A stretch of 64,000 nt of DNA from Cyclobacteriaceae bacterium (GTDB lineage: Bacteria > Bacteroidota > Bacteroidia > Cytophagales > Cyclobacteriaceae), in the NCBI GenBank assembly GCA_016787665.1, contig JAEUUC010000010.1:310001-374000 (forward strand), written 5' to 3'. This document shows positions 57,652-61,034 of this stretch, in pieces (position 1 is the first letter of the stretch; every line of letters starts with the position of its first letter). Both the position numbers and the translations under genes were made by a program. The notes below the pieces were generated by a model. The model was given only the letters and a program-made list of their open reading frames with translations, made no database searches and was not told the DNA's origin.

Positions 57652-60273
57652 TCAACTGTCTGTTCCTTTTGTCGGGGGCGTAAGGGTGATCTTCGATATC
57701 TCATTGAGGGTTGGCTTTTTGGTACCAAACTCGTGCTTTGCCAAACACATCTTTATTAGATAACCGATCTCTCGAACTTCCTCTTCAGTTGTGAAATCAT
57801 AGCTATACTTAGCAGAAAGCGCTCGCTTGATGTCAAATAAATAAAAGGAATTCTTACTCAAGGATGTTATATAGTCTTCTATCTCCTTTCGCCACCCGCG
57901 TGGTCGTGTTGAAATGATTAGTAGAGCTATCTTATGCTTCTGATTTTCATCCTTTTCCGATTGGAAAAACTCAAAAAATAGCGGTCCGAGTTTGCTGGAA
58001 AAGATATCGTCCTTGAAAAATCTTACCACATTCATCATGTTGACTAATATGATCTTTTTAACTCTTTCTTCAAACGTATCACCAAAATTGCCATTCAGGA
58101 AAAAAGCTTGTCCCTCAAATTGAGCGCGACCTCGGTCAGCTAGTATAGGTGTAAGCGCAAGCAATACACGAGACACCTGTTGCCAGCTCCTCACAATTTC
58201 GTTAAAAATCTGTCTCTTTAGATCGGGGTCTCCATAGTCACTGTTTCTTAGTGCTCGTGATGCAGCGCGAATATTCTGCATTAGATTATACACCGAATAT
58301 TCTGCGAAAAATTTCTGAATGCTTTGGTTATAAGGCCGAATTTGATTGTAGCTCTTGTCGGCATGCTGGTCTTTAATTGTATCTGGAAGCCCAGAGGCCT
58401 TTACTCCATCGCTGAGGGCATTCTGTGCAAGTTGAATCTGCTCTTCGGTGGGTTGCCACTTTATGTGGGCGAAAGGATTCATGTCTTCGGGGAATTTCAC
58501 TTTGCTTGTCACGGTGTCACATGTCTCACGGATATCTTTGATGAGCACTTCAAGGGCGTTGTTACTATTGCGGTTGATACCAGTGTAAAACTCAATGATC
58601 TCTGGAAAAGCAATATACTTTTTTGATTCAAAAATGTATTTAGCAAATCCTGGATCATAATGCATTCTTTTAGCAGCAAAATAGAAAACCCAATAACTAG
58701 ACCTAAATCCAAAATCAACATCACGTCTTACAATAATGTTGTTAGCACATAAAATCTCAAACACACTCTCAATCTCAAGATCAATCAATTTGCTTTTGCA
58801 AAAAGCCTGAAGTTCAGTCATAAATTTCTCCTTTGAAAAGAGATAAGTTTCTTTCCGAATCATCATTTCGCAAAAATGCCCCAAGACATGCTCGCAATCT
58901 TTTAGGTCTGGCTTCGTTTTGTATCTATGCAATGAGTCCATTGTAAATAAGACAAATAGAATCATCTCAATCAGGTTTGTTCGATTTACTGGACTTTCGT
59001 CAAAATACTTTTCTGAGACTTTCAGAAGAGTTAAACAATTCATTGGTGTTCGATGAATATTCAAAACCTCCATGTCAGAGAGTACCTTCGAAAGCACCTT
59101 GTCCTCTGCGCCAATTCCCTTTGCTTTCACATATTCCGATACAACCTTCCGTATTTGCGTTCGGGGAAGCGCAAGCAAATGCAAAATTTTGAACTCTCTG
59201 TTAATTGAGACATTGTGGGTCTCATCATGGAATCGGGCATCGTCAATTGTGTGCATGACGATAATTGGAGTAGTTGGGTAACTATCACAAAGATTTTTCA
59301 GTTTCCTTATACTATCATTTTCAGAGCTACTCCATGAATCAAGCACAATTGCTTTTATTGGCTTCCCAGCTAGTCCTAACGCCTCAATTTCCCTATTTGC
59401 AGCATTATGAATATTATGAGACTTTGTCTTCTGCGAATCAATGTAGACCCAAATATCTCCTATGTTCCAAGCTTGACTGACTAGGTAATGAGCAAGGCAA
59501 GTCAGTCCAAACTGAGGCGGTGCCTTGACAATAGTGGAGATGGGGTTGGCAATAAGTTCAGAAGGCTTGTATCGGTTTTCGTAGTTCTCAGTAGGGTTAG
59601 TTGAAATTTCATTTGTTTTGCTCAAAATAGGGTCAACCCAAATAATGGGTTGAGAACTAAAAGCCTTTAAAGACAAGTTTAGCCGCTCTTCAAGCTTAAC
59701 ACGAATCATTTCAGCTTGGACATTTTCCTTTGTTGAAGTGGTCGGGTTAATATTATACTGATCCAAAAAATATTGAGTTACTTGAACTCGAAGCGTTTTT
59801 TCAAAATCTTGTGCCCCATTATAACTCCAGTGATAGCCACCTAGGTCACTTATCTTTCTTTTAAACGCGTTTATCCTTAAAATCTCATTTGGATCAACCG
59901 CGCTTTTCTTAATTGGCTCATCATTGAAGTAAAACATTATTTGAACAGGCTCTTTCTTAAGTATTCTCTGGTAGGCGTTGTTGAATTCCTCCTCCGTGCC
60001 TGATCCAGCCACTTTTGTCTCTGTCCCAAATCTGTTATTCATGATTCCTATGAAGATATCATAGTCGTAACCTAGTTGAGCACTTACCACCGCTTGAGGA
60101 TATTCGCCAAAACCGGGGCGTGTGTTATGCTCCCACATTCTCTTTTCAATAACAAATCCGAATCTTACCCCTAGGCTCTGATTAAGTTCCTCGAATATGC
60201 TTTCGCAAATTCTCCTCTCGACTGCCGTGTCACCAGGAGATGCTACAAGACATTTGAATACTTTTCTATCCAT
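57652..60273 (-). CDS. DUF4062 protein with degenerate P-loop, candidate STAND-type immunity protein
   Basis: An 873-residue cytoplasmic protein. Residues about 5-170 match the DUF4062 fold: VFKCLVASPGDTAVERRICESIFEELNQ, then YDIFIGIMNNRFG and a C-terminal DFEKTLRVQVTQYFL. DUF4062 often stands at the N-terminus of bacterial STAND NTPases. Residues about 243-350 look like an NTPase core with a degenerate Walker A, VKAPPQFGLTCLAHYL (no GK[ST]), and a Walker B-like AIVLDSW (D312). The remainder (to 873) is helical without a family I recognise. No partner gene, signal or membrane helix is seen. A sampled line of its DNA is about 32% GC against about 55% in a sampled gltB line. Function is inferred from architecture only. 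Confidence 0.65.
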   Translation of the reverse strand: MDRKVFKCLVASPGDTAVERRICESIFEELNQSLGVRFGFVIEKRMWEHNTRPGFGEYPQAVVSAQLGYDYDIFIGIMNNRFGTETKVAGSGTEEEFNNAYQRILKKEPVQIMFYFNDEPIKKSAVDPNEILRINAFKRKISDLGGYHWSYNGAQDFEKTLRVQVTQYFLDQYNINPTTSTKENVQAEMIRVKLEERLNLSLKAFSSQPIIWVDPILSKTNEISTNPTENYENRYKPSELIANPISTIVKAPPQFGLTCLAHYLVSQAWNIGDIWVYIDSQKTKSHNIHNAANREIEALGLAGKPIKAIVLDSWSSSENDSIRKLKNLCDSYPTTPIIVMHTIDDARFHDETHNVSINREFKILHLLALPRTQIRKVVSEYVKAKGIGAEDKVLSKVLSDMEVLNIHRTPMNCLTLLKVSEKYFDESPVNRTNLIEMILFVLFTMDSLHRYKTKPDLKDCEHVLGHFCEMMIRKETYLFSKEKFMTELQAFCKSKLIDLEIESVFEILCANNIIVRRDVDFGFRSSYWVFYFAAKRMHYDPGFAKYIFESKKYIAFPEIIEFYTGINRNSNNALEVLIKDIRETCDTVTSKVKFPEDMNPFAHIKWQPTEEQIQLAQNALSDGVKASGLPDTIKDQHADKSYNQIRPYNQSIQKFFAEYSVYNLMQNIRAASRALRNSDYGDPDLKRQIFNEIVRSWQQVSRVLLALTPILADRGRAQFEGQAFFLNGNFGDTFEERVKKIILVNMMNVVRFFKDDIFSSKLGPLFFEFFQSEKDENQKHKIALLIISTRPRGWRKEIEDYITSLSKNSFYLFDIKRALSAKYSYDFTTEEEVREIGYLIKMCLAKHEFGTKKPTLNEISKITLTPPTKGTDS

Positions 60274-60492: not shown

Positions 60493-60646
60493 CACGCTTC
60501 GACAGTCCGATCGCTATCGGACTCAGCGTGACAAAAACTAATCATGTCAGTCTGAGCTAGTCAAAGACTGACAGTGCCCAAAACACGCTTCGACCGGCTC
60601 AGCGTGACAAAACCCTACTGTCAGTCTGAGCTAGTCGAAGACTGAC
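60493..60646. repeat. Four alternating palindromes (types A, B, A, B)
   Basis: Type A: CACGCT...AGCGTG arms at 60493-60530 (with an inner perfect stem AGTCCGAT/ATCGGACT) and a shorter copy at 60584-60606. Type B: GTCAGTCT...AGACTGAC at 60545-60573 and again at 60620-60646, with an identical centre apart from one base. All units are followed by a run such as ACAAAA or ACCATT. A third type A copy overlaps the end of the GIY-YIG gene (60984-61021). Confidence 0.85.
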
Positions 60647-60647
60647 C

Positions 60648-60679
60648 ATTGCACATAGATTTTGGCCGTCTTACCTTTA
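60648..60679 (+). promoter_or_regulatory. Promoter ATTG - 20 - TACCTTTA of the GIY-YIG gene
   Basis: ATTG at 60648-60651, immediately after the last B palindrome, and TACCTTTA at 60672-60679 (one mismatch to TAnnTTTG) are 20 bases apart. The -7 box ends four bases before the ATG at 60684, so the transcript would be leaderless. Confidence 0.55.
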
Positions 60680-60683
60680 GACT

Positions 60684-61022
60684 ATGAGTCGAGATCATCG
60701 ATACTTTGTCTACATTGTTGAATGTGCTGACGGCCTATATTACACAGGAGTAACCAACAACCTCGACAAAAGATTACACGAGCATAATGAAGGGGTTGAT
60801 CCCAAGTCCTTCACGTATAGGCGCAGGCCCGTAAAGCTTCGCTATTGGCTCGAATTCCAGGACGTTAATCAAGCCATTGAGTGGGAGAAGCAACTGAAAG
60901 GTTGGGGACGAAAAAAGAAAGAAGCGCTGTTCAACGAAGATTGGGAGAAGATCAAACTATTGGCGAAGAGTAGTATGCGTAGTCACCCTTCGACCGTCCG
61001 ATCGCTATCGGACTCAGCGTGA
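60684..61022 (+). CDS. GIY-YIG nuclease domain protein
   Basis: A 112-residue single-domain GIY-YIG protein: RYFVYIVECADGLYYTGVTNNLDKRLHEHNEGV holds the GIY/YIG-like strands and the catalytic Tyr and Arg, and AIEWEKQLKGWGRKKKEAL carries the conserved catalytic Glu and basic region. It is of the UPF0213/YhbQ type. The last ten codons lie inside a type A palindrome (60984-61021), which supplies the stop codon. It is preceded by four related palindromes. The family cuts DNA; the link to the palindromes is a hypothesis (see findings). Confidence 0.88.
   Translation: MSRDHRYFVYIVECADGLYYTGVTNNLDKRLHEHNEGVDPKSFTYRRRPVKLRYWLEFQDVNQAIEWEKQLKGWGRKKKEALFNEDWEKIKLLAKSSMRSHPSTVRSLSDSA
60984..61021. repeat. 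Third type A palindrome, overlapping the GIY-YIG stop
   Basis: CACCCT (one mismatch from CACGCT) and AGCGTG form the outer arms; the inner perfect stem GTCCGAT/ATCGGAC (60996-61002 and 61007-61013) has the CGCT loop of the first type A copy. The stop TGA of the GIY-YIG gene is at 61020-61022. Confidence 0.85.
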
Positions 61023-61034
61023 CAAACATTTGAC

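Follow-up and report, generated by a model that had tools for sequence, protein, structure and literature searches.

Bacterial immune receptors of the Avs/bNACHT type consist of an exchangeable N-terminal effector, a central STAND/NACHT module, and a C-terminal helical region that is the putative sensor. Activation of NLR-type receptors is usually explained by an ADP-to-ATP switch within the NACHT or NB-ARC domain. Here we analyze a single gene that joins a DUF4062 domain to a NACHT core whose Walker A lysine is missing, located in a 64,000-nucleotide stretch (the window) of a Cyclobacteriaceae bacterium genome (contig JAEUUC010000010.1, positions 310,001 to 374,000). The encoded protein is homologous to two tested defense families. 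DS-8 (NF053861), a single-protein metallophosphatase-NACHT system validated experimentally in E. coli, depended on a residue presumed to be essential for the ATPase activity of the NACHT domain (PMC13092281). The Swarozyc protein KpSwz carries a DUF4062 domain, described in a 2026 preprint as a TIR-like NADase; KpSwz binds the phage portal, depletes NAD+ through the catalytic residue E97, releases ADP-ribose and nicotinamide, and protects E. coli against phages (PMC13174449). STAND domains with degraded nucleotide-binding motifs have also been described, as compact iSTAND proteins with eroded Walker A and Walker B motifs encoded in BREX or MoxR-vWA operons (PMC7159879, PMC8195603, PMC12839542).

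The gene occupies positions 57652..60273 of the minus strand, as do all of its features given below, and is one intact open reading frame (ORF) of 873 amino acids with an ATG start, arranged as DUF4062 (TIR-like), lysine-less NACHT, winged-helix domain (WHD), and helical C-terminus. What a first-pass annotation had read from the DNA was confirmed, namely the length, a SPGDTAVERR motif near the N-terminus, a loop reading KAPPQFGLTCLA without GKT or GKS (residues 248-262 are IVKAPPQFGLTCLAH), and LDSW with the aspartate at position 312. We consider it probable that the gene encodes a horizontally acquired, single-gene NLR-like immune receptor in which the NACHT-WHD core senses infection and DUF4062 hydrolyzes NAD+, leading to abortive infection. 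In such a mechanism the C-terminal helical region and the NACHT-WHD core would recognize some conserved hallmark of infection (probably a phage protein), upon which the core would oligomerize and gather the N-terminal DUF4062/TIR-like domains into an active form; these would then hydrolyze NAD+ via Glu96, and phage growth would be stopped through cell death or arrest. By analogy with described receptors we infer the oligomerization, the phage trigger, the NADase activity, and the abortive outcome. The switch itself could take two forms, one nucleotide-free and one in which the lysine-less site binds nucleotide but does not hydrolyze it, the second being kept because Gly256, Thr258, and Asp312 are conserved. 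The earlier proposal of a single-gene immunity protein is supported as to its immune type, although it missed the effector, whose Glu96 corresponds to KpSwz E97. Because DUF4062 is itself the likely effector, the protein is probably a sensor plus executioner, rather than a sensor or regulator only.

The DUF4062 domain, a putative NADase effector, spans residues 1-175 (59749..60273) and belongs to the DUF4062/TIR-like family by sequence, fold, and catalytic residue. The PADLOC profile PDC-S60 matches residues 3-195 at profile positions 2-193 of 906 (E 3e-52), a match confined to the N-terminal part of the protein rather than one of full-length membership. Pfam DUF4062 (PF13271) is matched at E<=0.01 by 34 of 34 aligned homolog domains (best 2.6e-10). 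All 34 domains share Glu96, which lies in TEEEF (codon 59986..59988), and TxxE[FL] is present in 35 of 35 DUF4062-type proteins. Glu96 aligns with the catalytic E97 position of KpSwz; the aligned residue of the PDB chain is alanine (FTEKAF), as expected for an E97A construct, and two wild-type relatives have glutamate there (TEKEF and TEMEY). The domain is predicted with a mean local confidence (pLDDT) of 85, and its model aligns in VIA-align with plant and bacterial TIR structures at Z 10-11, as well as with the SPARTA TIR and with deoxyribosyltransferases, DNPH1 being among the top matches (Z 9-11.7 overall). Together with the position of Glu96, this predicted fold suggests that the domain is a likely effector, a TIR-like NADase acting through that glutamate. 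Two more loci of the same genome match DUF4062 (L135, G000:C7:166151-166375; L136, G000:C6:461448-461696), each adjoining genes that resemble nSTAND1-type ATPases with an intact GxxxxGK[ST]; these are possible separate conflict systems.

The remainder of the protein is predicted to be an NLR-like core. In an AlphaFold model built from a 54-sequence alignment (pLDDT 82.5), residues ~181-771 resemble animal NLRs by VIA-align, with the NLRP3 NACHT structure closest (Z 14.6, root-mean-square deviation 4.5, 399 residues aligned over 184-771) and NOD2 and NLRC4 at Z about 13 (12.5-14.6 for the three, over about 400 residues), and NOD2 is the top Foldseek match. The structural check that the first-pass annotation had proposed gave a predicted NACHT/NLR fold, and the predicted structure has the NACHT-WHD-HD2 succession (HD, helical domain) of NLR/NACHT STAND ATPases. 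The NACHT nucleotide-binding fold with HD1 covers residues 205-430 (58984..59661). Within HD1, the conserved motif LNIHRTP (residues 404-410, 59044..59064) stands opposite LNLPRTP of DS-8-type proteins, and its Asn405 and Arg408 are invariant. The winged-helix region matches Pfam nSTAND_NTPase4 at residues 477-533 (58675..58845; E 8.9e-8, 32.6 bits against a cut-off of 27), a match recovered again in the genome search; the C-terminus had earlier been described as belonging to no recognized family. The helical C-terminus, HD2-like and beyond, is the putative sensor (residues 541-873, 57655..58653), with NLR structures covering its HD2 part and with two conserved motifs, PEIIEFYTG (557-565) and RALRNS (673-678). 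Both motifs and LNxHRTP are conserved across core homologs. The same core is homologous to that of DS-8-type proteins of the same genus and order (L003/L004), with which it aligns by hhalign over 579 columns (E 1.7e-20, probability 99.3), and the NCBIfam DS8_antiphage model gives a sub-threshold match at residues 211-537 (45.8 against a cut-off of 790 bits). A phmmer search of the PDB with the window protein and an hmmsearch with full-length profile A2 gave no match.

The Walker A motif of this core is degenerate. It reads APPQFGLT at residues 251-258 (59500..59523), and hhalign places it opposite GTKESGKT of DS-8-type proteins, with Leu257 opposite the Walker A lysine. A contig search with a four-sequence alignment found 60 loci, where a search of the genome contigs with the single window sequence had found no match, and in the 59 loops that are readable the lysine position is leucine in 55, alanine in three, and serine in one, and never lysine or arginine. 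The loss was not imposed by the search, because 31 of the loci deviate from the loop pattern used for searching (FGLT) and are likewise lysine-less, which excludes ascertainment bias as its cause. The altered loop is conserved in Bacteroidota, Pseudomonadota, Thermodesulfobacteriota, and Chloroflexota, and no lysine-bearing intermediate was found when 395 Bacteroidota genomes, including that of the window, were searched with a profile of the core. Lysine loss belongs to the window clade, since Bacteroidota DUF4062 proteins outside the family carry an intact GDPGAGKT-type loop and DS-8-type proteins retain GKT. The former include a large, separate family (L009-L034), often with two members per genome. 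The rest of the site is kept in the window clade: Gly256 is invariant, Thr258 is threonine or serine, and the Walker B aspartate, Asp312 (59338..59340), is conserved in every one of the 61 rows that have a residue at this position. The protein thus has the Walker B aspartate of NLR/NACHT STAND ATPases and lacks their GxxxxGK[ST].

Family-wide loss of the Walker A lysine, alongside a conserved remainder of the loop and a conserved Walker B aspartate, makes it probable that the core is a ligand-gated scaffold without the classical ATP-hydrolysis switch. A bolder reading, to which we give somewhat less than an even chance, is a rare but widespread NLR-type family, found in several phyla, in which direct binding of a phage ligand would gate the lysine-less NACHT core, and this core would drive exchangeable executioners (a TIR-like NADase, a phosphoesterase, or a protease) with no need for nucleotide hydrolysis. 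An alternative of similar weight, likewise somewhat short of an even chance, is that the receptor is the same but its core binds ADP or ATP tightly without the Walker A lysine, so that the switch is one of nucleotide binding or exchange rather than hydrolysis. The invariance or near-invariance of Gly256, Thr258, and Asp312 and the conservation of LNxHRTP would be hard to explain with an empty pocket, and, given that DS-8 needed a presumed ATPase residue, the family may still use nucleotide. Lys250, just upstream of the P-loop, could be taken as a relocated (WNK-like) lysine, but, with lysine in no more than 31 of the 52 rows, the position was rejected as such a replacement. Position 257 is nearly always leucine and never lysine or arginine, and the residue following Asp312 is mostly serine, rather than aspartate or glutamate; both argue against a nucleotide-bound site. 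Of the earlier reading, the loss of the lysine and the joining of DUF4062 to a STAND fold stand, but "inactive" and the claim that ATP hydrolysis is not needed are too strong for a site that retains Gly256, Thr258, and Asp312.

Four types of N-terminus occur upstream of the lysine-less core (residue ~180 onward). Most members have DUF4062, about 17 have a calcineurin-like metallophosphatase (including one in a genome of the same genus, L002/L087), four have Trypsin_2 (L068, L073-L075), and one Chloroflexota protein has a divergent N-terminus with a weak TIR_2 match. On a tree of the core, a quick tree with some long branches, the DUF4062 clade has support 100 and the trypsin clade 99, and three effector changes suffice. 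Trypsin-type members are directly preceded by a conserved ORF of 101 amino acids, Trypco1 (L073:9145-9447, L074:3530-3832, L075:9127-9429, L078:8973-9275, and L068:98-400). Trypco1 has been named among the domains of predicted conflict systems (Kaur et al. 2020, PMC7159879), and this neighbor links the lysine-less core to described conflict systems.

Composition and distribution support horizontal acquisition. The ORF has a GC content of 39.7% (39.7% also at third codon positions, GC3), higher than the value of about 32% first reported from a sampled line, and the flanking gltB, gltD, amidohydrolase, and tetratricopeptide repeat genes have 53-60% (GC3 68-70%). At the gene, GC falls to 39.2%, the lowest among the window's 2.6-kb stretches (mean 51.3%, standard deviation 2.8%) and ~4 standard deviations below the mean, so that the suggestion of acquisition from GC below that of the neighbors is upheld. 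Outside the window genome, the family occurs in one of the 394 other sampled Bacteroidota genomes, and homologs are scattered over several phyla. Within the genus, the sampled relatives yielded a single copy of the DUF4062 type, which is that of the window, and a single lysine-less copy of the metallophosphatase type. In five genomes of the genus (G030, G035, G019, G026, and G021) the site between gltD and the amidohydrolase gene lacks the gene, and these two genes are convergent and 0.16-1.6 kb apart, compared with 3.5 kb here. The interval is no defense hotspot, as its longer versions (G006, G034, and G022) hold mostly metabolic and membrane genes, and searches of phage records and viral contigs found no relative, and hence no instance of the gene as phage cargo. 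Full-length homologs are 40-65% identical overall and 48-65% in other Bacteroidota; the latter, together with dN/dS ratios of 0.05-0.08 in close homolog pairs, place the ORF far beyond chance, and these ratios indicate purifying selection in those pairs.

Beside the gene lie gltB, gltD, the amidohydrolase gene, and a small GIY-YIG ORF (60684-61022, Pfam E 1e-17, within 60493-61026), which is flanked by two 43-nt repeat copies that are 95% identical and contain CGATCGCTATCGGACTCAGCGTGACA. Two further, more distant GIY-YIG homologs occur elsewhere in the genome, and the ORF with its repeats could represent a mini-element, mobile or repeat-associated, next to the immune gene.

The expectation that homologs would sit in defense islands is borne out in part. 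A full-length homolog with 40% identity on a Chryseobacterium plasmid (NZ_CP041688.1, L005:9060-20581) lies inside a type I restriction operon, between hsdS and genes for a nucleotidyltransferase, an S-4TM putative pore-forming effector, and hsdR. The Myroides indicus homolog is downstream of hsdM-hsdS, and others have type III or type II restriction enzymes, a pAgo-like gene, or an FRG-domain PDC-S15 gene nearby. Among the 113 homolog-neighbor proteins whose families were listed, no defense family but restriction recurs beyond a few, and a MoxR or vWA family occurs in at most one. Close to CBASS genes and a gamma-mobile-trio recombinase, a Pseudomonas mandelii plasmid (NZ_CP005961.1, L006:12028-13044) carries a remnant of the core (residues 535-863, 50% identity) whose annotation is that of a hypothetical protein; annotation can miss such relics.

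Besides the DS-8 requirement, several observations weigh against an NADase-driven phage receptor. First, the domain match is weak by sequence: Pfam DUF4062 scores 19.9 bits on the window protein, under the 24.7 cut-off, and the profile of the 34 domains, searched against the PDB, has the KpSwz DUF4062 domain (10wc) as its top match at E 0.0033, followed by the human TEP1 TIR (weak, E 0.099). Second, the neighbor evidence is qualitative; many homologs neighbor ordinary metabolic genes, and the window gene itself has no defense neighbor. Finally, human NWD1, NWD2, and NPHP3 have a DUF4062 domain for which no NADase activity was detected (PMC13174449). The window copy's surroundings and these human proteins, which share the DUF4062-NACHT layout, would fit a role outside phage defense, in stress or developmental regulation or as a receptor that recognizes plasmids or other foreign elements. 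We regard this as unlikely in view of the rarity of the gene, its atypical GC, the relatives' sites that lack it, the exchange of effectors, the defense genes beside homologs in other genomes, and the homology to two tested defense families. It is quite unlikely that the protein is an abortive-infection receptor whose DUF4062 domain supplies a partner effector with a signaling nucleotide, such as an ADP-ribose derivative, rather than depleting NAD+. TIR-fold enzymes do both, and deoxyribosyltransferase and DNPH1 structures are among the top fold matches; however, no conserved partner gene turned up among the listed neighbors of DUF4062-type homologs, the window gene is solitary, a protease and a phosphoesterase are among the alternative effectors, and KpSwz makes ADP-ribose and nicotinamide (PMC13174449). 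That the gene is a decayed, non-functional STAND relic, as the lysine loss alone would allow, is very improbable given the intact ORF, the conservation of the altered loop itself from Bacteroidota to Chloroflexota, and the low dN/dS, and for the family conservation and dN/dS rule decay out.

If the ATP-independent form of the proposed NLR-like receptor is correct, nucleotide hydrolysis is not required for NLR-style activation, and a natural family that keeps the NLR architecture and several effectors without the P-loop lysine offers a direct test of the need for the switch. The related single-gene phosphoesterase and protease variants make the modular design testable as well. ATP independence would be the novel part, the kind of protein, an NLR-like receptor, being already known. 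The literature searched for DUF4062 together with NACHT, most subscription papers lying outside the coverage, yielded no description of the bacterial architecture. The analysis places in a bacterial single-gene immune context a layout reported for TEP1 of the human vault, itself reported as an active NADase (PMC13174449). The likeness to eukaryotic TEP1, NWD1, and NPHP3 is one of layout, in the shared DUF4062-NACHT order; those are large proteins, several with WD40 repeats, unlike the window protein.

Comparison with the described bacterial systems sets the protein apart from each. With iSTAND proteins (MoxR-vWA systems; BrxB, BrxF, and PglW of BREX) it shares a STAND fold, a degraded Walker A motif, and a proposed sensor role, and some of these proteins carry fused TIR or trypsin-like domains, as the window family does. 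However, neither Walker motif nor the helical bundle survives in BREX iSTANDs, whereas the window protein keeps Asp312, the WHD, and the helical regions, and its gene stands without MoxR/vWA or BREX genes and outside any MoxR-vWA ternary arrangement; it is not one of the described iSTAND proteins that the first-pass annotation mentioned. With DS-8 it shares a homologous NACHT-WHD-helical core, and lysine-less metallophosphatase relatives exist, one of them in the same genus. DS-8-type proteins of related genomes keep GxxxxGKT, while the window protein has a DUF4062 effector in place of an N-terminal metallophosphatase, a degenerate loop, and a score far below the DS-8 cut-off. With KpSwz it shares the DUF4062 TIR-like domain, the catalytic glutamate of T-x-x-E-F at the same alignment column, and the single-gene form, but KpSwz has ~330 amino acids and a small helix-turn-helix/winged, portal-binding AUX domain that defines Swarozyc proper, where the window protein has a ~690-residue NLR-like NACHT-WHD core instead. 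As their defining features are absent, the protein is not DS-8, a KpSwz-type Swarozyc, or an iSTAND of the BREX or MoxR-vWA type. To Avs/bNACHT proteins, compared here by description, the likeness is in layout, although Avs proteins have an active STAND P-loop and directly sense a phage terminase or portal protein, and the window protein has no P-loop lysine. Taken together, these likenesses suggest that the protein would work like an Avs/bNACHT-type bacterial NLR equipped with a Swarozyc-type effector.
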